Shown here piece after piece: positions 4,913-33,295 of a DNA stretch of 34,429 bases. How positions within the stretch are numbered: the stretch's first letter is position 1; each line of letters opens with the position of its first letter. The translations under genes were made by a program, and so were the position numbers. The stretch comes from Candidatus Moranbacteria bacterium RIFCSPLOWO2_12_FULL_48_12 (GTDB lineage: Bacteria > Patescibacteriota > Minisyncoccia > Moranbacterales > UBA1568). Below the pieces are notes generated by a model. The model ran no database searches and was not told the DNA's origin. It worked only from the letters and a program-made list of their open reading frames with translations. The stretch lies in assembly GCA_001784735.1 (NCBI GenBank), contig MFSB01000033.1, forward strand, positions 439-34,867, written 5' to 3'.

Positions 4913-4915
4913 GAA

Positions 4916-4956
4916 AGCTTATAGCTTTTAGCTTCATCAGCTTTTTAGCTTTTAGG
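4916..4956. repeat. Heptad array (TAGCTTT-type) between prfA and prmC
   Basis: agcttatagcttttagcttcatcagctttttagcttttagg. Confidence 0.8.
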
Positions 4957-4966
4957 AAATTGAAAT

Positions 4967-5857: not shown

Positions 5858-5875
5858 ACATTGCGAAAAACAGAC

Positions 5876-5914
5876 AAAAAACCCCTCCGCCAGTTAGCGG
5901 ATTGGGGTTTTTTG
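5876..5914 (+). terminator. Rho-independent terminator after prmC
   Basis: AAAAAACCCC-TCCGC..GCGGA-TTGGGGTTTTTTG nested hairpin with T tract. Confidence 0.85.
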
Positions 5915-5947
5915 TTTTTTGAACTAAAAGAACCGAAGAAAGCGAAA

Positions 5948-11840: not shown

Positions 11841-14312
11841 ATGTTGGAGAAAAAACGCCAGGACAAAATCAGGACGGCTGCTCCGCTCGAGAGAACCATA
11901 GTGGAAATTCTCGTCGCCAATGGACGTTCTGTCGAGCCCTTCGTCAAAGTTTTCACTTACAGCGGCGAAAACGTCACCAAAAGCCCGCTCGGCACCTTGG
12001 TAGGTGTGTTTGAAATTGCCGACCGGAGCGAAGACTCGGCATACATCGTCAATTTCCTCGCTTCCGTCGCCAAAAAAGAATACTTCAGCAACCCGCGCCG
12101 CGGCGCTATCGAAAGTTTTGAAGCCGCTCTCCACAAGATCAATCTCGCGCTGGCCGAAATCGTGAAGCACGGCAATATCGCCTGGCTGGGGAAATGCCAT
12201 GGCGCGCTCGGCATCCTGGAAAAAAACAATCTTCACTTTTCCGTTACCGGCCAAGCCCAGATTCTTCTCTTGCGAAACAACAGCCTTTCAGAAATAAGCG
12301 CCGGGCTGGCTTCCGAAGAATCCCACGTCCACCCCATCAAGACATTCGTCGAAGTTTCCAGCGGGCGCCTGCTGCCCCGAGACAAGGTCATCTTCACCTC
12401 GCCGGAACTCCTCGGTCTCCTGCCTCTCGAAGATCTCGAGAAAAACGCTCTGCGGATGGATGGGGAGCATTTCGGGCAATTCTTGCGCACCGTGCTCATC
12501 AATGAGCTTGATATGGCCGGCACCGTCGTTCTCGATTTTCAAGAAGGCAGACCCTTCCCAGCGCCGCAAAAACAGGAAGAAAGAGCGAAAGAAACCACTG
12601 GCAATGTCTTCAGTCAAGAAGCGTTCGTCCCAAAAACCAAAACTCCGGGAACCGCCTCTTTCCAACAGGAAGGCGAGCAGGAAACCGGCGCCCCGGAAGA
12701 ATATGTCGATTCCAAAACCGGCCATATCTATGTCCAGGGGAGCACATTCGGAAAAACAGAAGCCAACCAGAGTCTCGAACATATCAAGCTCTCGCTTCAG
12801 AACGTACTCCACACACTGGGCTTATTCTTTGTTTCTCAGGGAAGGCTCCTGCGCAAGGGGAAAAAATACAGCTTCATCTTTTTTGCCGAACTGACAAAAA
12901 AAAGCGGCGCCACCGCCAGAAAAACCGCGCGCTTCCTGCGTAAACAGTTGCAAAAAAGATCTTTTCGAAAATTTTCGCCATCCCCGCAAGAAACGACGAT
13001 CCAACAAACAAAGGAGAAAACTCCCATTTTCCACGAGAGACCGGGATTTCCCCCGCTTCCGACACCACAATCCGAGTCAGCCCCAGCAGAAAGAAAGACA
13101 GAAGCACCGCTCCCCACCGAAACGCTCCCGGACACGGATGTTCCGCTTTTTATGAAAGAAAAATTGAACGCTTTCTATCGAAAAAATGGCGTTCCGAGGC
13201 CATTCGTTCCGCCAGAAAAATTTCCTCCTCAAAATTTCATACATGCCACCGATACGATATTTTCTTTCATGCGGAAAATTTCCCGGCGAAGTTCTGGCTT
13301 TCTCCCTTCACTCCGGAAACGGGTGCTCCTGGTGACACAGGCTCTCCTCAGACGCATATCTTTCCTCTTAAAAAACGTGTCGCCACAAAGACGACAAATT
13401 CTTCTCATAGGAGGCATCACCGGCATCGTCCTTCTCATTGCTGGCATCTGGTTCTTGACACGCCCGTCTTCAAATAATTCCGTCCCGGTAGCGGAAGCGC
13501 CAAAACAACAACCCGCGACACCGGTATTCCCTCCCAATACCGAAAAAAATGCCCACCTCCTCGCATCACCAACGGTATTTACTACTCAAAAAAATCCCCT
13601 CGTTGCTTCCGTCGTTCTCGATAACGTTACCTACCTCATCACTGAGAAAAGTATTATCAACATAAGTGACAAGAAACAATACGCATTGCCGGGAAGCGGT
13701 TCCGCGCGCTTGGCCGCTCCGATGGATCACTTGAGCCTCATTTTCATCTACACTTCAAGCAGCGAACTTTTCGCCTGGAGCCCGATCAGCCGGACCTTCG
13801 TCAAAAATATCCTCACCCTCCCCGAAGGCGCCAGCGTTAAAGACATCGGCACTTATCTCACCTACCTCTATGTCCTCGATGGCACTACCGATCAAATCTA
13901 TCGCTTCCCGCGCGCCGAGAGCGGCTTCGGATCAGGTAGCGTCTGGATGAAAAACAGCGTAGCTATTGAAGACACTGCCAAAATGGCAGTCAACGAGACC
14001 ATTTTCCTAGCACCAAATAAAAATTCTGTCCAAGCCTTTTTCCGCGGCCGCTTCGTAAAGAATCTCGAGTCTCCCAACACCCCCCTTTCCGTAACCAGTC
14101 TCTTCACTCATCCGGGATTGACTGATATCTACGCTCTCGATGCCGAGAACAAACGCATTCTCGTCTGGAACCAAGACGGTGCCCTCCTCGCCCAGTATTT
14201 CTCCGAGAAACTCGCCGCTGCCCAAACCGTCACCGTCAACGAAAAAACCAATGAGGTTTTCCTCACTACTTCCAATTCTCTACTTTCTTTCAAGATAAAT
14301 TCGGGGCAGTAA
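11841..14312 (+). CDS. 823-aa protein: degenerate PP2C-like N-terminus, TM helix, extracytoplasmic beta-propeller-like C-terminus
   Basis: PP2C-like CHGALGILEKNNLHFSVTGQAQILLLRNNSLSEIS...RDKVIFTSPELLGLL; TM ILLIGGITGIVLLIAGIWFL; repeated strand-rich C-terminus. Confidence 0.7.
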   Translation: MLEKKRQDKIRTAAPLERTIVEILVANGRSVEPFVKVFTYSGENVTKSPLGTLVGVFEIADRSEDSAYIVNFLASVAKKEYFSNPRRGAIESFEAALHKINLALAEIVKHGNIAWLGKCHGALGILEKNNLHFSVTGQAQILLLRNNSLSEISAGLASEESHVHPIKTFVEVSSGRLLPRDKVIFTSPELLGLLPLEDLEKNALRMDGEHFGQFLRTVLINELDMAGTVVLDFQEGRPFPAPQKQEERAKETTGNVFSQEAFVPKTKTPGTASFQQEGEQETGAPEEYVDSKTGHIYVQGSTFGKTEANQSLEHIKLSLQNVLHTLGLFFVSQGRLLRKGKKYSFIFFAELTKKSGATARKTARFLRKQLQKRSFRKFSPSPQETTIQQTKEKTPIFHERPGFPPLPTPQSESAPAERKTEAPLPTETLPDTDVPLFMKEKLNAFYRKNGVPRPFVPPEKFPPQNFIHATDTIFSFMRKISRRSSGFLPSLRKRVLLVTQALLRRISFLLKNVSPQRRQILLIGGITGIVLLIAGIWFLTRPSSNNSVPVAEAPKQQPATPVFPPNTEKNAHLLASPTVFTTQKNPLVASVVLDNVTYLITEKSIINISDKKQYALPGSGSARLAAPMDHLSLIFIYTSSSELFAWSPISRTFVKNILTLPEGASVKDIGTYLTYLYVLDGTTDQIYRFPRAESGFGSGSVWMKNSVAIEDTAKMAVNETIFLAPNKNSVQAFFRGRFVKNLESPNTPLSVTSLFTHPGLTDIYALDAENKRILVWNQDGALLAQYFSEKLAAAQTVTVNEKTNEVFLTTSNSLLSFKINSGQ

Positions 14313-15145: not shown

Positions 15146-15176
15146 ACAAAAAGAGGCTCTAAAGAGCCTCTTTTTT
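15146..15176 (-). terminator. Bidirectional Rho-independent-like terminator after the T4SS ATPase gene
   Basis: GAGGCTC-TAAA-GAGCCTC with A/T tracts on both sides. Confidence 0.8.
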
Positions 15177-15203: not shown

Positions 15204-17696
15204 CTACATCGGGCGCTCAGCCAGCTTGATGCGGCTCATGATTTCGCGGTTGACGATAGTAGCATCGCGGCCGTAGCGCAGACGGGAGAGTTCTTTCAGG
15301 GCATTGGCCACCTCCTGATCGCCGTGCGTCGGAGCGTAGGGCTTCATATTGAACGGCTTGGTCAGTTCGTTGTTCATCAGGAGCCTGACAAAACAATTGC
15401 GATTATCCACATTGATGAGGTCGCGCGCGGTAAACACCGGTAGAAATTGCTTTTCCAAAAATTCTGCGTCTTCCGAACCCACCCGAAACGACACCAGCGA
15501 TCCGACATTGCCGAACACCGCCTTGGAAATCTCTTCTTTCAGCTGGGCGATGAACTGATGGGCAATGATGAGAATCAAGCGATATTTGCGGGCTTCCGAA
15601 AGAATTTGCGCAATAGAGTTGGTTGTAACGTTCTGGAATTCATCCATATAGAGATAGAAATCCTTGCGCTCTTCTTCGGGTGTATCCACCCGTGACAGAG
15701 CAGCCATGAGGATCTTCCCTACCACCACCATCCCCAAGAGGCGTGCATTAATTTCCCCGATCTTACCCTTGGCCAGATTCACCAAAAGGATCTTGTTGGT
15801 ATCCATAATTTCGCGGAAATTGAGCGTGCTCTTCTGCTGGGCGATAATCGGCCGCATCATATCATTGGAGATGAAGGTCGTCAGCTTGGAGGTGATGTAC
15901 GGCACCATATTGGCCAGCGCCGCCTCGCCGCCGGCTTTCTCGGCTTCCTTGGTCCAAAAATCATAAGCGATCGGATTCTGACACTTGGAGAGCTTGTACT
16001 TGCGGAAGTCCTCATCCGCCAGCACCTTGGAAATTTCCATCAGGGTCGACCCGCTATCCGGGTCCTCCATAATAAGCAGCATGGCGTTGCGCATATACTG
16101 CTCGAACATCGGCCCGCCGGTGGCTTTCAAATCATACAGCTGATCGAAAATACCGATCATCTCGTTGATGACGAAGGTCTTCTGCTCCGGATGGGCCGGA
16201 TCATACTCGAGCATATTCAGTCCGATGGGACGCTCCGTGTCCGATGGGTCGAACAAAATCACATCCTCCGCCCGTTCTTTGGGAATAGCGGCCAAGATAT
16301 CCTCGATGGCATCGCCGTGCGGATCGATGAAGCAGAAGCCTTTGCCAGAAATGGCGTCTTTCTTGGCCATCTCCTGCAAATACACCGACTTGCCCACCCC
16401 CGTCTGGCCGATGACATACATATGGCGGCGGCGGTCATTGTCAGTGATGCGGATATCCGTCTTCGCACCCCGATAATCGTTGTACCCGAGGAGTATCCCC
16501 TCCTGTGGAATGTTCACCGGCGGCGGAGCCGCCCCGGCCTTGAGCCACTTGATTTTCGGCGTTTCCGTCGTAGAGATCGGAAAATGGAAAATACTCGCCA
16601 GCTCTTCGACGGTCAGCACCATTTGTGTCTCGTCGTCGAAGTTCCGAAAGATATAATCATAGACGGCCTTTTTTTCTCTGACCCGCTTCTTGACCCGGAA
16701 ATTATTCACTTCCGGATTCTCGAACTGTCCGAAGGCATTTTCCATATGCCCGAGAATCTCTTCGGCTCGCTCCTGTGTGGCTCCGGACGCGATGAGCCGG
16801 ATGTTGACAGAAAACGCACCCTTGTTCGTTTTGGCGTCGATAGATTTGACCAGTTCCTGCTCTTCCGGCGTCAAATTCACCGCTTTTTTCTCCTCACCTC
16901 CCGGAGTATCTTTTTTTGGACCACCCGTCATAACCTCGAGCAGTCCCTTGCCCACAACTGAACTGGCGCTCCGCAAAAATGATTTGTGTTTGGCATCGTG
17001 CAGGCGCTTGCCTTCCTGCATCTTCTGGGCGATCCGCTTGCCCTCTCTCCGCCACCCCGTAGTCGCGCGCGCCAAAAGCACCTGAATGGCCGCCCCTTCT
17101 TCTGCAGTGTTCAGTTTGCTCAAGGCATTGGAAATTTCATTGAGCGGATCGACATCTACTGTCCGGTAAGTCCGGAGCGGCAAGGAATGGCCATGCTTGA
17201 GCTCCAAGACCGCTACGGCCGTATGGCTCCCCGGGGAGAAAATAGTATAATCAGGCACCTTCTCGATCACCGCATGGGGGAAAAAACTGTGCACTTGTTT
17301 TTCCGCACTCTCCCGAAAACGTTTCGGAACGGAGAGATAGAAAAAGATTTCTTCGCTCGACGACGGGTTGGCGATTTCGAAAACGATAGTCGGGGTATCG
17401 AAAAACCATTTTTTAAAGAAATTCCCTTTCAGTTTGAGCACCGTCAGCGAAGAGAGGAGCTGCTCCATAGCGAAGATCTCTTCTTTCCATGCCTCCGCAT
17501 TCTTCTCTCGTTCTCCTTCCGGAGCTTCCTTGCGCGTCACCCGGATCATTTCCAGATCCATATTGACGGACTGATTCACCTGGTAGCGAAAACAGAGAAA
17601 ACTGCGGATCACCAAAAAGGTTCCGCTCAAGAGCGCCGCAGACGCGAAAATCCACGTCAGCGGGATAAGGATAGTATTCAAATCAAAGCCCTCCAT
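15204..17696 (-). CDS. Type IV secretion/conjugation coupling ATPase (VirD4/TraG/HerA-like)
   Basis: N-terminal TM; Walker A YVIGQTGVGKSVYLQEMAKKD; FIDPHGDAIEDIL; Walker B DFYLYMDEFQNVTTNSIAQILSEARKYRLILIIAHQF. Confidence 0.88.
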   Translation of the reverse strand: MEGFDLNTILIPLTWIFASAALLSGTFLVIRSFLCFRYQVNQSVNMDLEMIRVTRKEAPEGEREKNAEAWKEEIFAMEQLLSSLTVLKLKGNFFKKWFFDTPTIVFEIANPSSSEEIFFYLSVPKRFRESAEKQVHSFFPHAVIEKVPDYTIFSPGSHTAVAVLELKHGHSLPLRTYRTVDVDPLNEISNALSKLNTAEEGAAIQVLLARATTGWRREGKRIAQKMQEGKRLHDAKHKSFLRSASSVVGKGLLEVMTGGPKKDTPGGEEKKAVNLTPEEQELVKSIDAKTNKGAFSVNIRLIASGATQERAEEILGHMENAFGQFENPEVNNFRVKKRVREKKAVYDYIFRNFDDETQMVLTVEELASIFHFPISTTETPKIKWLKAGAAPPPVNIPQEGILLGYNDYRGAKTDIRITDNDRRRHMYVIGQTGVGKSVYLQEMAKKDAISGKGFCFIDPHGDAIEDILAAIPKERAEDVILFDPSDTERPIGLNMLEYDPAHPEQKTFVINEMIGIFDQLYDLKATGGPMFEQYMRNAMLLIMEDPDSGSTLMEISKVLADEDFRKYKLSKCQNPIAYDFWTKEAEKAGGEAALANMVPYITSKLTTFISNDMMRPIIAQQKSTLNFREIMDTNKILLVNLAKGKIGEINARLLGMVVVGKILMAALSRVDTPEEERKDFYLYMDEFQNVTTNSIAQILSEARKYRLILIIAHQFIAQLKEEISKAVFGNVGSLVSFRVGSEDAEFLEKQFLPVFTARDLINVDNRNCFVRLLMNNELTKPFNMKPYAPTHGDQEVANALKELSRLRYGRDATIVNREIMSRIKLAERPM

Positions 17697-17714
17697 ACTT
17701 TGCGCAACGCAAAA

Positions 17715-17860
17715 ATTTCTAATTTCTAATTTCTAATTTCTAAACAAACTCCAAACCATAAATCAAATTCAAAAGTTGAGACTTATTCAGAATATAGTTA
17801 TTAGAATTTATGATTTTTATTAGGTATTAGATATTAGATATTAGGAATTAGGTATTTTTT
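17715..17860. repeat. Heptad-bracketed intergenic element
   Basis: tttctaatttctaatttctaatttctaaac ... attaggtattagatattagatattaggaattaggta. Confidence 0.85.
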
Positions 17861-17862
17861 AT

Positions 17863-18291
17863 CTACTCTTTCGTAATGAGCCCTTTCGCCAAAAGACCCT
17901 CATACAGCTTGTCTATCAATTCATCGTGCATCCGATCAAGCGCGTAGTAATCTTTGAGCGAGCGGGCGACTTTCACGGCATGCGCGACGCCTTTGGTACT
18001 CGCCAGATCGAGCAGTTTCTGGATCTTAGACTCTTCATCCACCGTATCTCCGATACTCTTGGCATCCAAGAGGGCATCATCATCCGAAGACGCTGACACG
18101 GGACTGGCTGGAGAGACTTTGGAAAGAATCTCATTGTATTTTCCTTCTACTTGTTCTTTCCTGCCTTCCACAGCCGCTTCCTTTTCCCCCGCCGGAAAAA
18201 TCTCGATGTTTCCCTCCGCGCTCCCCTGTTTCTCGGAAGAAGATCCTTTCCCGCCTTCTCTCAATTCTCCCTCCAAAACTTCTTCTGGCAT
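17863..18291 (-). CDS. Small acidic hypothetical protein (142 aa)
   Basis: Intact ORF in a co-directional cluster; C-terminus ALDRMHDELIDKLYEGLLAKGLI. Confidence 0.65.
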   Translation of the reverse strand: MPEEVLEGELREGGKGSSSEKQGSAEGNIEIFPAGEKEAAVEGRKEQVEGKYNEILSKVSPASPVSASSDDDALLDAKSIGDTVDEESKIQKLLDLASTKGVAHAVKVARSLKDYYALDRMHDELIDKLYEGLLAKGLITKE

Positions 18292-18416
18292 AATTTTGTA
18301 AATTTCTAATTACCAATTTCTGGTTTCTAAACGATTTTCTCTGTCTCGGTTTTTCTACAATAATTCATCTTCTTTTTATTCCTGATTCATAATTCCACAT
18401 TCCTTATTCCGTTTTG

Positions 18417-18716
18417 CTAGGATTTCTTCATATCCCGTTTGAAATCCATAATGATTTTCGCTATAAAGTTATCGTAATCAGGAATCCGGGCTCTCAAGAA
18501 ATCATTTATTTCCTTTTCGCTTCCCTCACGATCCGCCAACGCCTCATACTCCTTGCCCCCGGCTTCGCCGAGCTTTTCGACGGTCTGAAGATGGATCTCC
18601 TGAAGGAGCGTCTCAATCGCCATATCGATGAGCCTTTCCTGCTCTTCCACGGGCAACGTTTCAATCCCCAGCTCCTTGGCCAAATCCTCCCGCATTACAT
18701 TTACATCAAGTGCCAT
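18417..18716 (-). CDS. Small helical hypothetical protein, possibly DUF5663-like (99 aa)
   Basis: MALDVNVMREDLAKELGIETLPVEEQERLIDMAIETLLQEIHLQTVEKLGEAGGKEYEALADREGSEKEINDFLRARIPDYDNFIAKIIMDFKRDMKKS; start revised to ATG at 18716. Confidence 0.7.
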   Translation of the reverse strand: MALDVNVMREDLAKELGIETLPVEEQERLIDMAIETLLQEIHLQTVEKLGEAGGKEYEALADREGSEKEINDFLRARIPDYDNFIAKIIMDFKRDMKKS

Positions 18717-18750
18717 AAATATATAGTTAACTAAATTATTGGTTTGGATC

Positions 18751-21700
18751 TCATATGAATCGCGGGATAGGAATGTGCTTGCCGGTCGGATGTTCCATGC
18801 CAAGCATCGCCATACGCGCTACATAATTATAGACTTTTTCTTTCGGGCTCGGCAAACCCAGCTTACTCCCATAGGCTTCTCTGGCTAACTTCACAAATCT
18901 GTCCAAATCACTACTTCTTGCATTCTCAAATGCCTTCTCTCCCAAAACTTTCATCGCTCCCATATCACCCTGGGAAATAAACCCGAAGTAACTTTCTGCC
19001 AATTCTTTATATGCTCCGAATGCTTCCGGATTTTTCGCAAAATACTCCTTATAGGCATTGATATCATACGTTTTCCCCAAACGGATATCCCGCTCATATT
19101 CTATGTCAGCATTTTTTACCGGCCCTTCATCGCGATTTGCAACTACCGTTTCGTCTTCTGATGCGTCGTCCGCTCCACTGGATTCCGCCTGAGCATCAGA
19201 TGATGAATTAGAAACAGAATCAGCTTCTTTCGGCACATCCGCTCCACCAGATTCTAGCTGTGCATCAGCGGATGACAAATCAGACACAATATCATCTATA
19301 TCTTCATCTGCCGGTACTTCCCTCACTGTATAGCCATCAGCATTATTGAAATCATCTCCGGGCTCATTCGCCCACGCCGGAGAGACTTTTCCTGCCAACG
19401 TGTCCGTCGCACCACCATGCAATATATTGTTGTCTATTAACGCATCCGTCAGCTTCACACCAGGATGCGCCTTGGCCCATTCCAAAATAGCGGCATTGTT
19501 TTTTGTGATGCTTTCCATCGCTTCGGCAGAAAGTCCGCTGGCGCCTTTCATGGCTTCGGCGACGTTGTCGCCCACCAGTTTGTCAAAATTGATATGTTCT
19601 CCAATTCCGAGCTTGCTAATATCACCGCTCTCAAATCCCGCCGCTTTCAATTGATCCGGTGACATCTCTGCTAGCTTATCTTTCAAAGCATCGATAGCAT
19701 ACGTTCTCTGGGCTTCATTCATACCGGAAAAATGTGAATCCTTGGCGGAAAGGTACTGACCCAAAAGTTTCCACGTCGAGTCGCCGCTGTGCGCCTCAAT
19801 CGAAGGAACTCCCTTGGCCCAGTCGAACCCTCCTTTGAACCAACTTTGGATTTTTTCTTGTATCTTAAACCAATCTCCTCCTTTTTTGAACCACCCCTGA
19901 ATCTTTTCCTGTATATAGCCCGATCCCATAAAAATCCCGGCTGCCAAAGCAGTGGTTTTTCTCGCCATCATTCCCACCTTGCGGCGCTTGAACTGTTCGT
20001 GAATACCTCCCATCCGTCCCTCCAAAAATGCTCTTTTGGCTTCAGCAATTTGTTCCGGTGTTCTTTCGCTCTTTTCCAACCCAGCAAATTCAGCATATGC
20101 CGCGTCACCGCCCTTTTCAACTTTTCCTTCATGGCGGCGATCTGAAAGACTTTCCAGAGCCGTATCAAGAGCGGCAAAAGTCGTGGCTCCAGTCAATACA
20201 CGACGCAACCCGATGAGAATCGGTCCGGCAGCCGCGGCGCCCGTACCAAAAGAAGCCACAGCCCCCAGGCCGAGTGCGATGCCGATTCCATAGCGATAAC
20301 CCTTAGGTAATTTATTGTACCAATGAGCTAGCCTCGGAAGACCCTCCACAAGCCAGCCTATTTTGGACTGAGCCAGACTTTCCATCTTGACCTGTTGGCG
20401 GGCTTGAAAAATTTTTATTCTTCCCTCGCATTCAGAAGACATCAGCACCCGCCCCATCTCAAGCCTATACTTCTCCTCGCTCAATTCACCGGAATCTTTT
20501 CTCTGATGGATATCCGCCAGGCGCGCGTCGCGCAGAACCCGAAAAGCGTTATCATATTCTTCCTTAGCTCCCTTATCTTCATATTTTGTTCTATCAAAAC
20601 GCAATATTTTAGAAATGTTCCTCAAAATACTGGTTTGTTCAAAATCAGCCTTCGCATACCGCTGCCGCGCCTCTTCCAAAGCATCCTCCAAATTTTTGAA
20701 CTTGCTCACTACTGCATTTTCTGAAGCCTTCTGTGATGGAACAGCTGGCGCGGCCTCCGAACCACGCGGAGCCCCCAGTTCTTGCGATGCCGTACTTGAA
20801 GCAACTCCTTTTGGAGCAGCTTCTTCCTTTTGAGAGCTTGCCGGCGCATCCGCATCTCTTCTCTGCCCGCCACCTTCCAGCGTCCAGTTGGCCGTATCTT
20901 GATATCTCTCCCACGCTTCCTCCGTAGCCCAGATCTTGTGTTTCCCCAGACTCTGTCCTTTCAGAAAATTACCATTCAAGCTTCGATAATATGCTCTTGC
21001 TCCAGTTGTTTTATTGATAAGACATATCACCTCGCCATTCGGGACGCTTTCCACAAAATCCTTCTTCCGTTCCTCTTCGGATTTCTCCGCACCGCTCGCT
21101 ATTGCCGGCTCTGCTTGCGACCCAGGTATTGATTCTGCCTTGACCGCTGGTTCAGCAGCTACTGGTGCAGACTGAGCATCTGCCTTTATCGGTTTTTTTA
21201 CAGGAGCTTCTTCCTCCACGATTTTTCCTTTCCAGCCATCTGACAATCTCTTCCACACTTTTTCTGTATCTATTGTAACCGTGTCACCCTCCGCTCTCTT
21301 CCAAGCCTTCCCCACAAGAAAATCATTATACTTGCTCCCACTATCCGGATCTCGGTGATAATATGCCTTACTCCCATTTTTGCTTGTAAGCTCTATAGTC
21401 GCTCCTCTCGGGATGCTATCCATAAAAGCCTTGGCCGTCCTCTCTTTTCCCGCTCTCACTTTCTCAGCCGCAGGTGTCTTAGAGTCTACATTGTTACCAG
21501 GCGCAGCTAAATCTGCCTGTGAGGCTAAAACATTCGGCTCAGCGGCTGCTGCTGCGGGAGCGGCCGTCTTCGATACTGTTGGTTTTTGCCTTTGATTTCT
21601 ACGACGTATTCCTCTTATTCCTTTTATATCAACATCCGCTGCAGCTGAAGCTGGCTCCGCTGCTGGAGGAACATCGGGACTGGCCGGTTGTAAAGTCGCT

Positions 21701-21816
21701 GAAGGTACGGGCTTTCCTGCCAAAACCTGTTGGTCGATGCCAATGCCCTTGTGCCCCTCATCGCCAGCGGCTTTCCCGCCTTCGGCAATGGCTTTCAAAA
21801 AATCTTGTTCGCGCAT
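18751..21816 (-). CDS. 1021-aa hypothetical protein with duplicated N-terminal domain and hydrophobic central segment
   Basis: Continuous ORF; paired FMDSIPRGATIELTSKNGSKAYYHR / FVESVPNGEVICLINKTTGARAYYR domains; hydrophobic YGIGIALGLGAVASFGTGAAAAGPILIGLRRVL. Confidence 0.85.
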   Translation of the reverse strand: MREQDFLKAIAEGGKAAGDEGHKGIGIDQQVLAGKPVPSATLQPASPDVPPAAEPASAAADVDIKGIRGIRRRNQRQKPTVSKTAAPAAAAAEPNVLASQADLAAPGNNVDSKTPAAEKVRAGKERTAKAFMDSIPRGATIELTSKNGSKAYYHRDPDSGSKYNDFLVGKAWKRAEGDTVTIDTEKVWKRLSDGWKGKIVEEEAPVKKPIKADAQSAPVAAEPAVKAESIPGSQAEPAIASGAEKSEEERKKDFVESVPNGEVICLINKTTGARAYYRSLNGNFLKGQSLGKHKIWATEEAWERYQDTANWTLEGGGQRRDADAPASSQKEEAAPKGVASSTASQELGAPRGSEAAPAVPSQKASENAVVSKFKNLEDALEEARQRYAKADFEQTSILRNISKILRFDRTKYEDKGAKEEYDNAFRVLRDARLADIHQRKDSGELSEEKYRLEMGRVLMSSECEGRIKIFQARQQVKMESLAQSKIGWLVEGLPRLAHWYNKLPKGYRYGIGIALGLGAVASFGTGAAAAGPILIGLRRVLTGATTFAALDTALESLSDRRHEGKVEKGGDAAYAEFAGLEKSERTPEQIAEAKRAFLEGRMGGIHEQFKRRKVGMMARKTTALAAGIFMGSGYIQEKIQGWFKKGGDWFKIQEKIQSWFKGGFDWAKGVPSIEAHSGDSTWKLLGQYLSAKDSHFSGMNEAQRTYAIDALKDKLAEMSPDQLKAAGFESGDISKLGIGEHINFDKLVGDNVAEAMKGASGLSAEAMESITKNNAAILEWAKAHPGVKLTDALIDNNILHGGATDTLAGKVSPAWANEPGDDFNNADGYTVREVPADEDIDDIVSDLSSADAQLESGGADVPKEADSVSNSSSDAQAESSGADDASEDETVVANRDEGPVKNADIEYERDIRLGKTYDINAYKEYFAKNPEAFGAYKELAESYFGFISQGDMGAMKVLGEKAFENARSSDLDRFVKLAREAYGSKLGLPSPKEKVYNYVARMAMLGMEHPTGKHIPIPRFI

Positions 21817-21820
21817 ATCT

Positions 21821-24800
21821 TTATTTCAAAAACTTTTCAATACCATCCGCTATGACCTTGTCGACAAATGTTTTTTTCTCCCCCTCCGACCAAGCAAGTT
21901 TTTTCCCTACTGCTACGAAAGAATCCTCCAACCCCTTCGCTAAAGCATCAGTAATTTGCTGCCTGTACTTATCCTTTTGTCCCACCAATCCCGGAGCTTT
22001 TTCCTTCATCGCGCGAATGCCTGTGCCTATAGCGCCGAAAAGCGTGTAATAATAGCCACTTCCCTCCGCTTCCGTATAAAGTTCTCCGTATACTCGTTCT
22101 TTTGTAGTTCTTTCCTTCCCCGCTGGATAGAATTCATTTCTTCTTTTCACATAAACATCCCTGATTCCATCTTGAAATACGTTGGCTATCCTTGTCAGTT
22201 TTTCTCTCTCTTCATCTGAAACTGGCGGATATTTTTTCAACAAATCATCCACAAATGCTCCGCTGATGAACCCGGGAACATCTTGTCCGTTTCCACCCGC
22301 CTCTGTGGTAACAGCATCAAAAGCTTCTTTCGTTTTGGCCTTATCAATCCTCTTGAGCCATTTTTCTTTCTCTTTCACCAATGCGTTCACTATGCGAAGT
22401 TCTCGCCTGTTCTCCTCGCCCGCACCAACAGCTACTGGTTTTTCTGCTATCACCTGTGCCTGGGGTATTAATTCTTCGGGGATAATAATAGCCTTACTGG
22501 CCGTATCAATAGCCCGGGACACTTCGCCATATTCCTCGTCATCCATGTCCAGCTTGGCATTCCGGATCAGATCGTCGAGATGGCGCACGAAGTAGCCACA
22601 CTGCTTCTCTGATATTGCCCCTTTCGATTGGAGCTCCAGCGCATGCTTTTTCCTCGCTTCGACTATAATTTGTAGCATGTTTAGTTCTTGTCCCGCTCTC
22701 TTTTCTGGCTCTCTTTTTTGGGAAGCAGAAACCAGTTCCTGTTCAGGGGACCATCTATGCTGTTCTTGCAAGTACTTGAGTATGACGCCAACATTTTTTG
22801 GCTGTACTTTTCTCACCAACCCATCATAATTAACTCGCAACAGCTGTTCTGCATCGGATATCTCTACGACAGTAAATTCTTTGCCGTCCTTCCCTTTTCC
22901 AAAGGGTTTTCCTTTTTCCTTTTGTTTCAGCGCTGCCACGAGCACGGCAAACTGTGATTCATTGACAGCCATCTCAAGCGCCGGGTAGTACACATCCCAC
23001 ATCCCCTTCAGCCTCTTGTCCATGGCTGCACACGTTCTCACATCTTCTATATCCGTAAAGTCGAATTTCCTCAGATATTCTTCAAAAAAATCCTCCTGAG
23101 TGATTCTTTTGGCGGCCAAACCATCGCACGCATTCCTGAGTTGGTCAATAAAATATTCTTCAGCAATGCGTTTCACAAACAAAACGTTCACAACTTGCTC
23201 CTTCCAAAGTTCCAGAAGGCCCATCTTCATACCGCGAACCAACTGTACAATATCCGGAGACGCATCCTTTCTGTATAACCGAAAATCTTCAGGATATTTG
23301 ATTCTCCTAGTCCCACCAGCCCCTTTAAATTCAGTCATTGCCTTCAAAACAGCCAAATCATTGCATGTCAGTATTCGGATCTTTGTTTCATTCATCCATC
23401 TCTCTCGCCGAGACCCTGTTTCCGTCTCAGATAGCTCTTCGCCTTCCGGCTTTGCTTCTGGTTGTATCAACGGACGAGAACGCTCCCAATGAAAATTTGT
23501 TTTCAAGAAATTTTCAAACCATACGGCTTGCATCGATGTTACCGTTTTTTGATACCCCGCTCTCTTTCCGCTCTCTCTGTAGTTGTAAGTAATGGAATCT
23601 GGCGTAACACTTAAAATTTCAAGTTCTCCCCCAGCTGCGCCGACTACCCGCTGCCTTTTCCCTTCCTTCAAATTCTGAAAGAACAACGCAAACAATTCCT
23701 TCTCGGTGAGTTCCTTTCCTTCTGGTTTCCCTCCGCTCCCTTTCGCCTGCTGCGCCACTTCAATGGCCGCGAAGTGTTTATCCCAAAGTTCATAAAGCTT
23801 ATTCTGTAAAGCTTTGCACCGCTTTGGTTCTACCATATCATCTAATCCGTCAAACATGCTCTGGAATTTCTCGACATATGCCCTGAAAAAGCCTGATTTA
23901 TTCAATTTCTTGCCATACGTCTTATACGATTCCTGAAGAAAGCTGGCAAACTCTGATTCGATATTTGGTATCCCGAAAATAACCTTCACCACTTGCTCCT
24001 GCCACAGATTCATAAGACCTTTCAACTCAGCACTAAATGTACTCTTGATCTCCGTCGAGGCATCTTTTCCGAAGAGACTCCCGAATTCACGAGGGAAGTT
24101 GAAACTTCTCCTTTTCCCAGCGTCTTTGCCCACAAAAATTGTCAGCTTTTTCAAAGCATCCAGGTTATCAAGTTTTGGTATTAACGCCTTTGTCTCCTCT
24201 ATCCAAACTTTACTCTTTTCCTGCAGGTCTTCAATACTTAGTCGTTCCTCCTCTCCTCTTCTCGGTCGAGGCCGTCCGGCCGATTGTTTAGATTCCGCTG
24301 CTCTCAATTGTAGTTTTCTCGCCAGGTAGAGCTCCTCAAGGTTTATCTCTGCTGAAGCGAACAAATCAAACGCTTCATTGCGTGCATCATCGCCTTTCTT
24401 TCCTAGCTGATTATTGAAGTAATCGGCAAAAATGTTCAAATCAAAAAATCTGTACTTTTCGCCTTTCCCGGGACGCCTTAGGCTCTGTAATTCTTTAGTT
24501 TTCTTAGCGTCTGAAATTTTTGTCTTTAAATTTTCAAGTGTCTGATTAAAGACCGCCAAGAACGCTTGTTTTCGAGCATCCGAAGCTTCTCCGATTCCAT
24601 TATGTACATCTGTTCGAGCCGCCGCATCGCCACTCGCTGGCGCTTCGCCGACCACCTTTGGTTTTCTTGTACCACGCGATAGTTTGGCACCACTTGCTCC
24701 TGTTGCAGGTTTTCTTCCAACCCTCGGTTTTCCGCGCGCAGGTCTATTTTCCACAGCGACAACCGGAGTAGGTTTGTCAACCGACGCTTCAACAGCTCCG

Positions 24801-24916
24801 GGTGCAACCTCGGGGTCAACGGCATCTAGCCTCTTCCCATCTGTAGCTACAGCAGCCTGAACGGCCTTGTCTGCTCTCGCGGCAATTTTGAGCATTACCT
24901 CGTCCAATTTACTCAT
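21821..24916 (-). CDS. 1031-aa hypothetical protein with internal large-domain duplication
   Basis: Continuous ORF; two ~230-aa repeats beginning WIEETKALIPKLDNLDALKKL and WMNETKIRILTCNDLAVLKAM. Confidence 0.85.
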   Translation of the reverse strand: MSKLDEVMLKIAARADKAVQAAVATDGKRLDAVDPEVAPGAVEASVDKPTPVVAVENRPARGKPRVGRKPATGASGAKLSRGTRKPKVVGEAPASGDAAARTDVHNGIGEASDARKQAFLAVFNQTLENLKTKISDAKKTKELQSLRRPGKGEKYRFFDLNIFADYFNNQLGKKGDDARNEAFDLFASAEINLEELYLARKLQLRAAESKQSAGRPRPRRGEEERLSIEDLQEKSKVWIEETKALIPKLDNLDALKKLTIFVGKDAGKRRSFNFPREFGSLFGKDASTEIKSTFSAELKGLMNLWQEQVVKVIFGIPNIESEFASFLQESYKTYGKKLNKSGFFRAYVEKFQSMFDGLDDMVEPKRCKALQNKLYELWDKHFAAIEVAQQAKGSGGKPEGKELTEKELFALFFQNLKEGKRQRVVGAAGGELEILSVTPDSITYNYRESGKRAGYQKTVTSMQAVWFENFLKTNFHWERSRPLIQPEAKPEGEELSETETGSRRERWMNETKIRILTCNDLAVLKAMTEFKGAGGTRRIKYPEDFRLYRKDASPDIVQLVRGMKMGLLELWKEQVVNVLFVKRIAEEYFIDQLRNACDGLAAKRITQEDFFEEYLRKFDFTDIEDVRTCAAMDKRLKGMWDVYYPALEMAVNESQFAVLVAALKQKEKGKPFGKGKDGKEFTVVEISDAEQLLRVNYDGLVRKVQPKNVGVILKYLQEQHRWSPEQELVSASQKREPEKRAGQELNMLQIIVEARKKHALELQSKGAISEKQCGYFVRHLDDLIRNAKLDMDDEEYGEVSRAIDTASKAIIIPEELIPQAQVIAEKPVAVGAGEENRRELRIVNALVKEKEKWLKRIDKAKTKEAFDAVTTEAGGNGQDVPGFISGAFVDDLLKKYPPVSDEEREKLTRIANVFQDGIRDVYVKRRNEFYPAGKERTTKERVYGELYTEAEGSGYYYTLFGAIGTGIRAMKEKAPGLVGQKDKYRQQITDALAKGLEDSFVAVGKKLAWSEGEKKTFVDKVIADGIEKFLK

Positions 24917-24957
24917 ATGAAAAGGTTAATAAACTTTTTCTCTCTACGTAATCCTCA

Positions 24958-27843
24958 TTATACACTCTTATCTTTTCTTTCCATATACCTTGCCATCCGC
25001 TGAATCATCATATCAGTAAGCATCGCCGTTCCTTTTTTCCGAATGATAGCAACCATATCTTCAGTTGATCCCCATGCCTTACTGATTCTCACAATATCCT
25101 TACCAATCGTCGCCAAAAGAGGATCAATTTTCTTTTCTATCCGCTCTTTATCTTCAGGTTCTTCACTTTCCTGAATTTCCTCCAATGTTTTTATTCCTGT
25201 TTCGCTCAGATAGCTATCGACGTCACTTAAACCCCCCTCAATATATCTTTGCAACTCACCAACAATCCGCTGCTGTTCGCTCAGCGGTACGACCGATTCG
25301 AATGTTTCCTCTTCTTTTTTTCCCTCCGGTTTGCGATCTCTAGCTCGACCACCAAGCGCTTCTTGCTGCCGATTCCACACATCTCCTAAATCATTATTTA
25401 TTTCTTTCAAAAAAGCTACGGCAAGTAACTGACTCCGGCCATGGATTTTTTCTGCCAATTCTTTCAGCTGCACATCTGTCTCTTTCAGAAATTCGCGCAC
25501 AAAATACACTCCCTTGCCTCTGCTCGCGCTATCATACCGCTTTTCTTTCTTCCCAATCCTACCCAAAGTTTGAGGCGATTCCGCTTTTTCTATCCGAAGA
25601 AGTATGCGTTGCTTGAGTTCCTGTACCTTTTTCTTGAAAGCATCCAAAACCTCTGGAGAGGAATCTGCCTCTGTCGTTCCTTCAAATCTTGGCTTGTCAG
25701 CACGGGTTCTTTTTTTCAATACCCGCGCCTGCGCTTCCCACGATCCCAATAACTTTGTATTGATGTCCTTCAAATGCGCTGCTGCCAATGCTGCCTCAGT
25801 TGGTTTCTCCATTAATTGATCTGTCACTTCTCGCAAATCAGTATCTGTTTCTTTCACAAACTCCCGTACGGTGTATTCCCTGCCACTCTTGGCATCTTTT
25901 CTCGTTTCTGGAATACCAATGTTTTCAAGCTTCTGGAAGGTATCAGCTTCTTTTATACGATCGGCTAGCTCTGCCGTCCTCTTTTCTACTCTCATTTTAA
26001 ATTCCGAAAGTGTAACATCACTTTCCTCTGAATTACCCACTCTCAGATCAAGATACATCCGCGTGAGCCTCCCCTTGCATCTTCGTAAGAGTTCTATCTT
26101 TCTCAGATCTCCCCTGCCACCCCTTGCTCTTTCTTCAGTAAACGCATCAAAATACCCCTTGGCTTGTGTGACCTGGCTATCGACTTCTGCCAACTGACGA
26201 TCTCTTTCGGCATCATCCTTGATTTTTCCCATCACTCCCCGCAATCCGCTCTGCAAAGTTTCAATCTCTCCCCACAAAATCGACGGCGAAGCTTCCTGGA
26301 GTATTTTTTGTACACTCTCCTCTTTATCCAACCCTCCTCGGTGAACCTTCTTTGCCAATTTCCCTTTTCTTTTGTTGTGACCATTCTCGTACTCATTCTC
26401 TTCCGTGAACATCCGCTCCTCAAGCTCGCTCAACTCGGCAAGAACTTTTTCTGTTTCTTCCGGCGATGACTGGTCATTGATTGATTTGAGTAATACCGTA
26501 ATTCTTTTCCCAAACCCTTCGATTGCCGCTTCATCCCCGACAAAGGCGACCCCTCTCCCCGCCAATGCACGATCGGCCTTGTCCTTCAAACGCCTCTTTA
26601 TTTCATTCAGCCTTTCTATCGTAGTCTGCTGAAAGTAGATTTTCCGATACATGCGCTCTAGCTTCTCCAATTTCTTGCTGTCGAGTTTTTTTGTTTCTTG
26701 GTAATCTTTTGATGCTTCCAATTCTTCTTGTTTTAAGCGCAAGAAATCATCTGGTATCACCTCGTGCAACGATAAGGTACCGCCTGGCACCTTAATGAGC
26801 GTATCTGTTGGTGCTTCTACTGATGTTTCTCCTGGTACTTTCGTCAAGGCACGGATCTCAGCCAGTAAGTGCATTTTTCGGCGGCCACTCTCCAAAAAAC
26901 GCCCATCCAAGACATTCCATTCCTTCCCGATTGCCTCAATTTTCACTTTCACTGATTGCAAGGCTGCTAATGAGGCTAGCCCCTGACTCCTCAAATCTAA
27001 ATCTTTAACTTCGCCTCGCAAGCTCTGGCCGTAATTTTCTTCAATCGCTTCCTTCCATGCGTCCATCATCTTACCGCTTGCTTCGTACTCTTGGCCAAAA
27101 GCATCATCTATTTTCGACATCTCCTTCTCGTAGGCCTTATACAGCAGCGGGCGTTCTTCTTGTAGCGAGTCGATCTTCACCATTCCCTTCACGCCGATGG
27201 CAACATCGAAATTCTTGAGCGGCTTCCTCTGTTCTTTCTTGTCATATTTGATCACTCCATCAGCATTGTATTCCGTAAAAGGTACTTCCGCTTCGCCATC
27301 CTTCAAAGACACCCCTTCGACTTTGATTTTCTCGCCTGTATGAAGATTCTTAAAAATATCGCCCGTGAGCCGATACACTGTTTTTTTCGGTGGCTGCACT
27401 GGATCTGGAAGAGTCTTGGCAGAGACATTCTTCTCTCTTTGTTGAGGGACGCCACTATCACCACTCATGAGTGGCACTGGTTGCGTAGCAACTGCACCTG
27501 CCTGCACTTCCGCTACTATTTCAGATGTACTCGCATCATCCGGTTTGGCTGATTTCGAAGCAGCTCTTTTCCGTGGTTTCCTTTCCTTTTTATCCGGCTT
27601 AATTGTATCCGAAGCGGTTTTACTTTGCGGTGTTTCTGACTCACCCACTTCACTCCCCGGTAAAGCTTTTCTCTCTCCATTTATCGGGCGTGCCGGTTCT
27701 TTTGATGGAGTGTCCAGTGCCACTGGTTTGTCCCCAAGACCATCAATATAAGTTATTTCGGGCACCCCTGAACCGCCGGAAGCTTTTACTGCTTCGGCTT
27801 TACTTTGAAAAATTCTTCCCAAAAACTTTTCTGCCCCGAACAT
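24958..27843 (-). CDS. 961-aa hypothetical helical-repeat protein
   Basis: Continuous ORF; tandem ~95-aa repeats ADRIKEADTFQKLENIG..YTVREFVKETDTDL.. and LRIEKAESPQTLGRIG..YFVREFLKETDVQL.. Confidence 0.85.
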   Translation of the reverse strand: MFGAEKFLGRIFQSKAEAVKASGGSGVPEITYIDGLGDKPVALDTPSKEPARPINGERKALPGSEVGESETPQSKTASDTIKPDKKERKPRKRAASKSAKPDDASTSEIVAEVQAGAVATQPVPLMSGDSGVPQQREKNVSAKTLPDPVQPPKKTVYRLTGDIFKNLHTGEKIKVEGVSLKDGEAEVPFTEYNADGVIKYDKKEQRKPLKNFDVAIGVKGMVKIDSLQEERPLLYKAYEKEMSKIDDAFGQEYEASGKMMDAWKEAIEENYGQSLRGEVKDLDLRSQGLASLAALQSVKVKIEAIGKEWNVLDGRFLESGRRKMHLLAEIRALTKVPGETSVEAPTDTLIKVPGGTLSLHEVIPDDFLRLKQEELEASKDYQETKKLDSKKLEKLERMYRKIYFQQTTIERLNEIKRRLKDKADRALAGRGVAFVGDEAAIEGFGKRITVLLKSINDQSSPEETEKVLAELSELEERMFTEENEYENGHNKRKGKLAKKVHRGGLDKEESVQKILQEASPSILWGEIETLQSGLRGVMGKIKDDAERDRQLAEVDSQVTQAKGYFDAFTEERARGGRGDLRKIELLRRCKGRLTRMYLDLRVGNSEESDVTLSEFKMRVEKRTAELADRIKEADTFQKLENIGIPETRKDAKSGREYTVREFVKETDTDLREVTDQLMEKPTEAALAAAHLKDINTKLLGSWEAQARVLKKRTRADKPRFEGTTEADSSPEVLDAFKKKVQELKQRILLRIEKAESPQTLGRIGKKEKRYDSASRGKGVYFVREFLKETDVQLKELAEKIHGRSQLLAVAFLKEINNDLGDVWNRQQEALGGRARDRKPEGKKEEETFESVVPLSEQQRIVGELQRYIEGGLSDVDSYLSETGIKTLEEIQESEEPEDKERIEKKIDPLLATIGKDIVRISKAWGSTEDMVAIIRKKGTAMLTDMMIQRMARYMERKDKSV

Positions 27844-27863
27844 TCAGTTTTTCTTTTTTGCTT

Positions 27864-28088
27864 ATTACCAAACGAAGTGAGCGCAGTGAAAGTTCACTTT
27901 CACTGCCGACCGCGTGCTGCCAAAGCTCCAGCGGTGGCGCAGCGTAGTGCCAGCCCGCTTCGCCCGCCTAGCCGTCGAGGCTGGCCGGAGCTACAGCGAG
28001 GCGAAGTAACATCGGATCCAACCCAGAGCTTGCCACGGGCGTTCGCGAACGACGTGGCTTGCTCTGGGGTAGTAAATATCCGTTATTT
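27864..28088. repeat. Dispersed REP-like composite repeat, copy C
   Basis: ttaccaaacgaagtgagcgcagtgaaagttcactttcactgcc...cccgcctagccgtcgaggctggccgg...gagcttgccacgggcgttcgcgaacgacgtggcttgctc...aatatccgttattt. Confidence 0.7.
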
Positions 28089-28089
28089 C

Positions 28090-28098
28090 TGCTATAAT
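28090..28098 (+). promoter_or_regulatory. Extended -10 promoter for the first GT39 gene
   Basis: TGCTATAAT about 34 bp upstream of ATG at 28132. Confidence 0.5.
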
Positions 28099-28131
28099 TC
28101 TACCATAAAAAACAAAAAATCAAAAACGTTT

Positions 28132-29763
28132 ATGAGCGAACGTTTCGCTTTCCGTCCCCACCATATTGCTACATGGATCGCTCTTGCGGTCATCCTCATT
28201 CTCGCCTTTACGGTGAGAATCTATCACATCGAAACCATCCCCGCCGGGCTCTACCCCGACGAAGCTGCCAACGGCGTCGATGCCATTCACGCTCTCGAAA
28301 CCAAAAACTTTCAGCTTTTCTATCCGGCCAATTTCGGCCGCGAAGGGCTCTTCATCAATCTACAGGCGTTCTCAATCGCCATTTTCGGCAACACCATCCT
28401 CGGACTCAAACTCTGGTCTATTCTTTTCGGGACTTTGTCCGTTCTCGGCATCTATCTCCTCGGGAGAGAGCTTTTTCACCGGCGCATCATCGGCATCCTC
28501 GCCGCGTTCATGCTGGCCACCTCCTATTGGGCGATCAACTTCTCTCGCATCGGCTTCCGCGCCATCATGACCACCTTCGTCCTCACTTTCTCTTTCTACT
28601 TCTTCTTCCGCGGACTGCGCACGCGGAAACTCCGTGACTTCCTCCTCTCCGGACTCCTCTTCGGGCTCGGGCTGCATACCTATATCGCTTTTCGCGTCGC
28701 TCCCCTCATCCTCATCATCCTCCTCCCGGCGTTCCTCCTCTCCTACGAGAATTTTCTCCGCCGTTTCTGGAAACAGGGAGCGCTTTTTTTGCTGGCAGCC
28801 TTCATCGCCGCCGCGCCGATGCTCTATCATTTCTTCATTTCCCATCCCGAAGATTTCGTTTCGCGCGCCTCTCACATTTCCGTCTTCTCAGCGGAAGCCA
28901 ACCATGGAGACCTCCTCGGCACGCTCCTCAAAACACTTTCTCTGTCGCTCATAAAATACAATTTCTTCGGCGATCAGAATTGGCGCCACAATTACCCGCC
29001 CTATCCGGTTCTTGATCCTTTCGTCGGCACCTTCTTCCTGGCCGGTTTCCTCTTCGTCATCTGGCGGACGATCATCCTCCTCGGCCGGCGCATCCGCGAG
29101 GGCGATCGGGACACGCGTCTGGTTACCTATTTCTTCCTCCTCGGATCATTCTTCGTCATGCTCATGCCGGAGTTTCTCACCAACGAAGGCTTGCCGCACG
29201 CGCTCCGCTCCATCGGCACCCAGACGCCGGTCTTTCTCATGGCCGCGCTGGCTGCCTCTTGGATAGCCCGCAAGGCGCTCTCCGCGCAGACCGGTGCCCG
29301 CATCGCTCTCTTCTCGCTCCTCGTTGTCGCCCTGGGAGCAAGCGCTCTTTTCAACCTCACGAAGTATTTTGTTTTCTTCGCCCACAATGAGTCTGCCGCC
29401 GCCTCTTTCAACGAAAGCTATACCAATATGGTGCGCTATCTCATCTCCCTGCCGGAAGAAACCCACAAATATGTGCTCGCTGATGAAAAGGGCAACAGCG
29501 ACCGCTTCCGCCTGCCCGTTTTCGCCCATCCGGTCTATTTTCTCACCTACCGCCAAGTGGCCAACCTCGAAATCGTAGAGCCCGAAACGGTCCTCAGGCG
29601 GCCGGGAATATTTCTCATGCTCAATTACAAAGATGTGCTTGCCCAGCGGATCCAAAAATTTTATCCGGATGCCTCTATCAAACACATCGATATGAATGAG
29701 CCGGAGCGCGCCGGGGGAGACTTCAATGTCATCGTTCTGCCTTCAGCAGAAAATAAAAAATAA
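28132..29763 (+). CDS. GT39/PMT/ArnT-like polyprenyl-linked glycosyltransferase, multi-TM
   Basis: TM-rich; IETIPAGLYPDEAANGVDAI (GT39-type first loop with acidic residues); start revised to ATG at 28132. Confidence 0.82.
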   Translation: MSERFAFRPHHIATWIALAVILILAFTVRIYHIETIPAGLYPDEAANGVDAIHALETKNFQLFYPANFGREGLFINLQAFSIAIFGNTILGLKLWSILFGTLSVLGIYLLGRELFHRRIIGILAAFMLATSYWAINFSRIGFRAIMTTFVLTFSFYFFFRGLRTRKLRDFLLSGLLFGLGLHTYIAFRVAPLILIILLPAFLLSYENFLRRFWKQGALFLLAAFIAAAPMLYHFFISHPEDFVSRASHISVFSAEANHGDLLGTLLKTLSLSLIKYNFFGDQNWRHNYPPYPVLDPFVGTFFLAGFLFVIWRTIILLGRRIREGDRDTRLVTYFFLLGSFFVMLMPEFLTNEGLPHALRSIGTQTPVFLMAALAASWIARKALSAQTGARIALFSLLVVALGASALFNLTKYFVFFAHNESAAASFNESYTNMVRYLISLPEETHKYVLADEKGNSDRFRLPVFAHPVYFLTYRQVANLEIVEPETVLRRPGIFLMLNYKDVLAQRIQKFYPDASIKHIDMNEPERAGGDFNVIVLPSAENKK

Positions 29764-29959: not shown

Positions 29960-30122
29960 GTTGGGCGCCTTCTGCGGAAAAATTTCCAGAGAGGCTTGAA
30001 AGTTTTTCGAGCACGGTGCCGTCCCGTCAAGACGGGGCGGATCGAAAAAGTTTCAGAAGTGAGTTCGCCGCTGGGCGAACGAGTGTCTCTCGGGAAATTT
30101 TTCCGCACGAAGGTGCTACAAC
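29960..30122. repeat. 163-bp nested inverted-repeat element upstream of the second glycosyltransferase
   Basis: Arms gttgggcgccttctgcggaaaaatttccagagag and ctctcgggaaatttttccgcacgaaggtgctacaac; inner arms GAAAGTTTTTCGA/TCGAAAAAGTTTC; hairpins CCCGTC-AA-GACGGG and GTTCGCC-gct-GGGCGAAC. Confidence 0.85.
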
Positions 30123-30135
30123 CAAAACAATAATT

Positions 30136-32286: not shown

Positions 32287-33258
32287 CTATTTCTTTTTCT
32301 TGGAGGAAACATCGGTTTTCTTTTCTTCTGTCAGCACCGAAGGAGAAAGAGTGACTGGGCTTTCTATATTTTCTCCTTCGCGAAACGCATAGTACGCCCG
32401 GGTTTCCGCGCGCAGGTCGATATACGCCAACTTTGCACGCCGCTCTTTCGGCAACTCTTTCTCAATAAGAAGCTTGAGCACATTGAGCGATGCCTCGATC
32501 GGGATCCCGGTGCCAAAATATGCCTCCCATCCTTCATCCGTTTTGACGCGCAGTTCGTCGGCAAAACGAGAGACTGTCGTATACCGCGGCTCAATCCCCA
32601 GCCCCAACTGCGCCGGAAACAGCTCCTTCATCTGGATGGCGAAAGCCCCATAACTCGCATCAAAAACTTTTTCTCCCAGAGCCACCTGTTTGTTGCTCAT
32701 ATCGGTGATAGAAAGCACGTACGGCATATTTTCCGGCAGAAGCGCCTGCGTACTATCGTGCGCCGCCCCTTCTTCATCGATGAGATAATATTGGTCTTGA
32801 GAATACCAGAGAATGATTTTCTTCCGCTCCGTCACCTCGATATTCAGATTATTCGGAAAAACGCGCGTCACGGAGACGGAAGCCAGGAGCGGGTATTCCA
32901 AGCGCAGCCGTTTTTCCAGATCCTGCGGCCGCACCAGAAAAAAATTCTGCCGGAAAAAGATCCGAAGATATTTTCTTGACAGCTCCCTCTCGATGAATCC
33001 GCCGAGCGTCCTTTGAGAAATCTCGCTCATCCCTGCGATCCGCGGCGAAGCGATAAGAAAAAATGTGGAAAAAAAGGCTGTATAAGAAAGCGTCCCAAAG
33101 AAAAGTGCCCAAAGGAAAAGAGTACCCGCTCCGATGTGCCGTCTTTCTTTTTTTCCCACCGTGCGATATCTTTTCCGCTCTGGCAAGCCCTTGCGCAAAA
33201 AATGCATCGATGATTTTTCTTGGTGTTTTTGTTTTGTCCGTTTTGATACAAACCACAT
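32287..33258 (-). CDS. FtsQ/DivIB-like POTRA-domain protein
   Basis: Single N-terminal TM and POTRA-like YPLLASVSVTRVFPNNLNIEVTERKKIILWYSQDQYYLIDEEGAA; start revised to ATG at 33258. Confidence 0.78.
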   Translation of the reverse strand: MWFVSKRTKQKHQEKSSMHFLRKGLPERKRYRTVGKKERRHIGAGTLFLWALFFGTLSYTAFFSTFFLIASPRIAGMSEISQRTLGGFIERELSRKYLRIFFRQNFFLVRPQDLEKRLRLEYPLLASVSVTRVFPNNLNIEVTERKKIILWYSQDQYYLIDEEGAAHDSTQALLPENMPYVLSITDMSNKQVALGEKVFDASYGAFAIQMKELFPAQLGLGIEPRYTTVSRFADELRVKTDEGWEAYFGTGIPIEASLNVLKLLIEKELPKERRAKLAYIDLRAETRAYYAFREGENIESPVTLSPSVLTEEKKTDVSSKKKK

Positions 33259-33261
33259 AAA

Positions 33262-33295
33262 ATAACTGACAACCAACTACTTACGACTAACGACA
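33262..33295. repeat. Heptad array filling the holB/ftsQ-like gap
   Basis: Minus strand reads approximately GTCGTTA GTCGTAA GTAGTTG GTTGTCA GTTATTT then ATG. Confidence 0.7.

Follow-up and report, generated by a model that had tools for sequence, protein, structure and literature searches.

A block of six genes on the minus strand of a 34,429-nucleotide stretch of DNA from a member of the Moraniibacteriota (Patescibacteria) (the window, i.e., the whole stretch that was analyzed) encodes a VirD4-class coupling ATPase, two small proteins, and three giant proteins. The ATPase, both small proteins (a DUF5663 protein and an acidic protein of about 142 residues), and one of the giants form a four-gene core with conserved synteny. 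Tentatively, and giving it not quite an even chance, we read the block as a detached coupling-protein arm of the Patescibacterial type IV secretion system (T4SS), with the giants as its dedicated membrane clients. With a coupling-type ATPase set beside small partners and membrane giants that evolve fast, the conserved locus offers concrete candidates for what the T4SS machinery handles.

Layout and surroundings of the block

The window belongs to contig C33 in a genome of 0.99 Mb, and all six ORFs of the minus-strand block that had been proposed were recovered (Table 1). From giant 1 to the ATPase, the intergenic gaps measure 41, 4, 34, 125, and 166 nt, in agreement with the gaps of 4 and 41 nt originally noted between the giants. 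All gene calls are longest-ORF calls, with start sites and small genes approximate; the DUF5663 ORF has an alternative, longer TTG start that yields a protein of 128 aa. Just past the ATPase stop lies a strong terminator-like hairpin (read from 15175 to 15148), and all other minus-strand sites in the stretch have 5 to 6 stem pairs. Promoter-like sites were no more frequent in the stretch than in shuffles.

Table 1. Features of the minus-strand block, in window coordinates
Feature	Coordinates	Strand	Description
Giant 1	24958..27843	-	961 aa; no family; duplication at residues 629-733/750-852; no transmembrane segment; lineage-specific
Giant 2	21821..24916	-	1031 aa; no family; duplication at residues 222-408/491-686; no transmembrane segment; among 40 loci, found in the closest relative only
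Giant 3	18751..21816	-	1021 aa; membrane giant; conserved position directly upstream of DUF5663
Giant 3, conserved core	19867..20724	-	Residues 365-650; helical "mid" domain, Gly/Ala-rich membrane hairpin, and second membrane helix
Giant 3, LysM-like domain	19417..19803	-	About residues 672-800; predicted outside the membrane; based on model pLDDT and HMM in 16 loci
Giant 3, C-terminal element	18754..18867	-	About residues 984-1021; type V/T-x-x-[WY]-x-x-R; based on enrichment and split test
DUF5663 protein	18417..18716	-	99 aa, ATG start; PF18908; candidate chaperone or giant partner
p142	17863..18291	-	142 aa, acidic; C-terminal helical motif LDxxHDxL; candidate ATPase adaptor
ATPase	15204..17696	-	830 aa; VirD4-class coupling ATPase with VirB4-like N-terminal domain
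ATPase, Walker A	16386..16409	-	GQTGVGKS, residues 430-437
ATPase, Walker B	15633..15653	-	LYMDEFQ, residues 682-688
Intrinsic terminator-like hairpin	15148..15175	-	12-bp stem, T-rich tail; closes the block

Housekeeping genes around the block (encoding ribosomal protein S2, a release factor, and PrmC, among others) give the window a chromosomal character. A mobile-element origin of the window was considered and is disfavored: these genes flank the block, and the ATPase relatives found in Bacillus and phage are remote. No relaxase was found among the window genes scanned, consistent with the original observation that the window holds no relaxase, VirB4, or pilin gene; the genome carries its VirB4, PrgI, and T4SS pilin genes on contigs other than this one.

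Two membrane glycosyltransferase-like genes lie on the plus strand (27805 to 29763 and 30016 to 32118, with PMT_2 in the first), and two such genes flank the block on the opposite strand in most order-level loci. Upstream of them, on the minus strand, is a gene for an FtsQ-type POTRA protein (32287 to 33276), relatives of which occur in 22 of 40 order-level loci. Additionally, an 823-aa protein with one transmembrane segment and no Pfam match is encoded on the plus strand (11841 to 14312); in 20 of the 40 loci, it is conserved next to the ATPase.

The ATPase and the T4SS genes of its genome

Judged by its sequence and structural model, the 830-aa protein belongs to the VirD4 class of coupling ATPases, motors of the type that feeds cargo into secretion machines, and its N-terminal domain resembles that of VirB4. 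The Pfam families TrwB_AAD_bind and TraG-D_C both match above cut-off, and the RecA-like motor carries Walker A and Walker B motifs, as expected of a T4SS coupling protein. An AlphaFold model built on an alignment of 56 orthologues (mean pLDDT, 85) matches the TrwB motor with a TM-score of 0.58 to 0.66 (normalized by target length), and an all-alpha domain, or TraM-recognition region, is indicated by helices at residues 505 to 609, the TrwB fold match, and the Pfam hits. A profile search of PDB sequences found TrwB and IcmO/DotL. The fold match to TrwK/VirB4 extends across nearly the whole length (E = 1.9e-15), its large overall rmsd meaning that it supports domain content and not a fixed arrangement. 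The protein is not itself identified as VirB4: there is no P-loop_TraG match, VirB4_CagE reaches E = 0.011, far below its cut-off, and PF19044 is matched in this genome by the gene on contig C43 only. TrwB-type coupling proteins have an N-terminal membrane anchor of two helices; here, one transmembrane segment is predicted (residues 16 to 34), and the model has a single long helix at residues 6 to 44. The Walker motifs, the N-terminal transmembrane segment, and the VirD4-like nature of the protein had all been proposed beforehand; the motifs are present, the segment is predicted, and the VirD4-like nature is supported by Pfam, fold, and relatives outside the phylum. The fold search also places the ATPase in the same P-loop superfamily as HerA, and a weak relation to archaeal CedB and CedD was seen. 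A HerA anti-phage system was ruled out, with HerA models matching at E values of 4e-4 or weaker and the nuclease/Sir2 partner unmatched.

Orthologues of the ATPase are present in all 76 genomes sampled from its genus, family, and order, with identities within the order of 54 to 93% (54 to 86% among the 18 aligned to the window protein and 93% for the closest relative). Across the phylum, near-full-length matches at E ≤ 1e-150 were found in 283 of 290 genomes. Among the full-length relatives from beyond the phylum are DUF87 proteins encoded on Bacillus plasmids; on the one such plasmid inspected, the relative is followed by genes for a replication-relaxation family protein and for conjugal transfer. 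Bacillus phage G, a jumbo phage, encodes a remote full-length relative, gp156 (JN638751.1; 85% coverage, 24% identity). Many genomes have a second VirD4-like ATPase, a paralogue that in the genome studied here lies on contig C47 (L102, positions 2317 to 5944) and is split into ORFs of 441 and 688 aa; in many relatives, the match to this paralogue crosses one or two in-frame stops, as if it were two adjacent genes.

The same genome encodes VirB4 with a PrgI/VirB3 neighbor on contig C43, five T4SS pilin domains on contig C18, and a separate FtsK on contig C6, and VirB4 was found in 74 of 76 relatives. In three relatives, a T4SS pilin gene lies directly 3' of the ATPase gene and is read in the same direction (L075, E = 1.8e-5; L083, E = 5.9e-4; L134, E = 2.8e-6, above cut-off), and in a fourth (G061) an above-cut-off pilin match lies 320 nt after the ATPase match. 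Genome G005 keeps both the locus and pilins and has no VirB4 match, possibly owing to an assembly gap. Its apparent loss of VirB4 was considered as proof of independence from the T4SS and rejected as such, because its pilins are present.

The giants and their small partners

Conservation of gene order across Patescibacteria, which the original prediction had put forward as a check, held for giant 3, the DUF5663 protein, p142, and the ATPase, and the layout recurs in distant families; it did not hold for giants 1 and 2, confined to the closest relatives (2 and 1 of 40, respectively). Among the 40 order-level loci, the order is nearly always giant, DUF5663 protein, 142-aa protein, ATPase; members of the p142 family occur in 39 of them (in most just upstream of the ATPase) and DUF5663 in 35. 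The window DUF5663 protein itself scores 30.0 bits against PF18908, the gathering cut-off of which is 23.7. In distant families, a large protein is followed by DUF5663 and then the ATPase (L245, L246, and L247), with a small protein between the latter two in L246 and L247, or DUF5663 and a large protein lie within a few kilobases of the ATPase (L248 to L251). The two locus sets overlap, some genomes being represented in both. In ABY1-type genomes, the position of p142 is occupied by a different small helical protein; this was considered as a p142 homologue, for which the profile gave no support. Locus L128 has a second giant-DUF5663 pair, 3' of the ATPase, and the pair therefore behaves as a unit. 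In genomes of another class (loci L225 to L235), DUF5663 adjoins an infB-like gene (resembling translation factor IF-2), mostly without a giant. In the library searched, no paper mentions DUF5663.

No solid match to the giants came from Pfam, NCBIfam, PADLOC, or PHROGs, and the match to a known unrelated family that would have counted against the original prediction did not appear. When the giant model (mean pLDDT, 59) was used for a fold search, no match had an E value under 0.5. The single layout ascribed to all three giants is borne out for composition but not for homology, none being detectable. Homology among the three was rejected on pairwise scores that did not exceed those of shuffled sequences, the marginal score of giant 2 against giant 3 being limited to the low-complexity N-terminal part. 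Each giant has an internal duplication of its own (residues 117 to 193 and 240 to 307 in giant 3), all scoring above 100 shuffles. The supposition that the three giants are one kind of protein is not supported, since giants 1 and 2 are restricted to particular lineages and have no detectable homology with giant 3. The giant 3-type proteins, in turn, are hypervariable and diverge far faster than their neighbors: mean identity within the genus falls from 79% (ATPase) through 70% and 65% (the two glycosyltransferases) and about 52 to 54% (the two small proteins) to 30% (the giant). Giants or large neighbors of 1,784, 2,033, and at least 2,393 aa are present in L087, L138, and L245, respectively.

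What giant 3-type proteins have in common is a core of about 280 residues, matched by iterated HMMs in 50 and 57 loci and seen in an alignment of 40 giants, in which a helical stretch precedes a hydrophobic hairpin rich in Gly and Ala, after which come a charged stretch and then a second helix, likewise hydrophobic. Residues flanking this second helix are more positive on the N side than on the C side in 39 of 46 giants, and the C-terminal 400 or so residues are therefore predicted to lie outside. The LysM-like region has a strand-helix-strand arrangement in the model (pLDDT mostly 77 to 92), and its HMM finds about 16 other loci; Pfam LysM itself matches 1 of the 46 giants, weakly (E = 0.007), and does not match giant 3. 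The C-terminal element occurs in 32 of 59 giants, compared with 3.6% of the giants' other 50-aa windows and 6.4% of the C termini of other proteins, an enrichment that is inflated by related sequences and was for that reason followed by a split test on nonredundant giants. In six such tests, drawing on 39 nonredundant clusters, the best match fell in the last 60 to 70 residues for 11 to 14 of 17 to 20 test giants, against an expected 1.2 to 1.4.

Possible roles and known systems

If the block is indeed the detached coupling arm of the T4SS, the ATPase would assemble as a membrane-anchored hexamer with the acidic p142 as its adaptor, while the DUF5663 protein might serve as a chaperone that maintains the giant in usable form. 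With its hairpin and second helix as anchors, the giant would be the dedicated client of the ATPase and may pass through the T4SS, be displayed at it, or present cargo to it; its fast change could reflect adaptation to different host bacteria. We favor this reading because of the Pfam and fold class of the ATPase, its spread over the phylum, the conserved layout, the T4SS parts in the genome, and the pilin genes 3' of the ATPase in four relatives. The plasmid relatives that adjoin conjugal transfer genes, the giant-DUF5663 unit, the C-terminal element, and the divergence of the giants all point the same way. Counting against it are the position of the T4SS core on another contig, the absence of a VirB4 match in G005, and the occurrence of DUF5663 beside an infB-like gene without a giant. 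In the one Patescibacterium examined by Tn-seq, epibiotic growth requires a T4SS gene cluster, in which no coupling protein was recognized and whose role there is described as unknown (PMC10633639, PMC11665869); for "Ca. S. epibionticum," the T4SS is reported to be essential, with no recognizable coupling protein in it (PMC10633639). That the coupling-protein gene of this organism was nonessential although other T4SS genes were essential, as PMC12102498 reports, likewise speaks against a coupling arm.

It seems unlikely to us, if still credible, that the block forms an envelope complex of its own, unconnected with the VirB4 T4SS, in which the ATPase moves DNA or protein across the membrane and the giant is an envelope-spanning scaffold (in DNA uptake, for example). 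Such a complex would account for a near-universal ATPase conserved as much as VirB4, for the weak relation to CedB and CedD, and for a locus that lies away from VirB4 and that G005 and G061 carry without a VirB4 match. However, such independence is opposed by the T4SS pilin genes that follow the ATPase directly in four relatives and by the annotated full-length ATPase relative outside the phylum that adjoins a relaxase-type gene, and the retention of pilins in G005 makes an assembly gap likely there. We consider it very improbable that the block encodes a complex that handles or segregates chromosomes by means of a HerA/FtsK-like DNA pump: a separate FtsK is encoded in this genome, the motor has a TrwB-like all-alpha domain, and no nuclease partner is present, even though the ATPase shares its superfamily with HerA and, in several genomes, the ATPase or its paralogue has replication genes such as dnaX-like and DNA polymerase delta'-like ones nearby.

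The giants might instead be structural, host-facing, or cell-wall-bound envelope proteins that merely share an operon with an ATPase acting on something else; the membrane hairpin, the positive-inside second helix, and the LysM-like domain predicted outside would suit such proteins, and surface proteins are often quick to vary. The LysM-like domain in particular suggests that the giant may be a resident of the envelope rather than cargo. Speaking against this reading, which we consider unlikely, the genes for giant, DUF5663, small protein, and ATPase remain linked throughout the order and in distant families even though their sequences change rapidly. Under the coupling-arm reading, this conserved gene row makes the giants the best candidates for clients of the secretion machinery. 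We speculate further, while regarding it as doubtful, that in the giants we have the first candidate for a cargo of the Patescibacterial T4SS, i.e., host-interaction proteins that the ATPase would recognize by their conserved C-terminal element, that DUF5663 would hold in a competent state, and that would be inserted into or displayed at the point of host contact by way of the hairpin.

The block had been proposed as a candidate for an undescribed system; that it is one, and self-contained, is not supported: the T4SS core lies elsewhere in the genome, and orphan VirD4 proteins have been published, with 5,713 homologues reported in 2,918 Patescibacteria genomes, nearly all away from virB4 (Quinonero-Coronel et al. 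2025, PMC12102498). The window ATPase fits the description given there. We found no published account of this operon, and the accessible part of the same paper does not describe a conserved operon with giant, DUF5663, and acidic partner or the hypervariability of the giant. Coupling-type DUF87 proteins of Bacillus and haloarchaeal plasmids align with the ATPase at 84 to 87% coverage and 24 to 26% identity; they adjoin a relaxase-type or conjugal transfer gene, with no giant or DUF5663 neighbor annotated. Cag-beta with CagZ provides a precedent for a small partner of such a motor as such, the putative role of p142. The fold of TrwK/VirB4 is matched over nearly the full length of the ATPase, but the genome has a separate VirB4. 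With TrwB, the coupling protein of R388, the ATPase has in common the motor fold, including the all-alpha domain, and it differs from TrwB in having one predicted N-terminal transmembrane segment and a VirB4-like domain before the motor.
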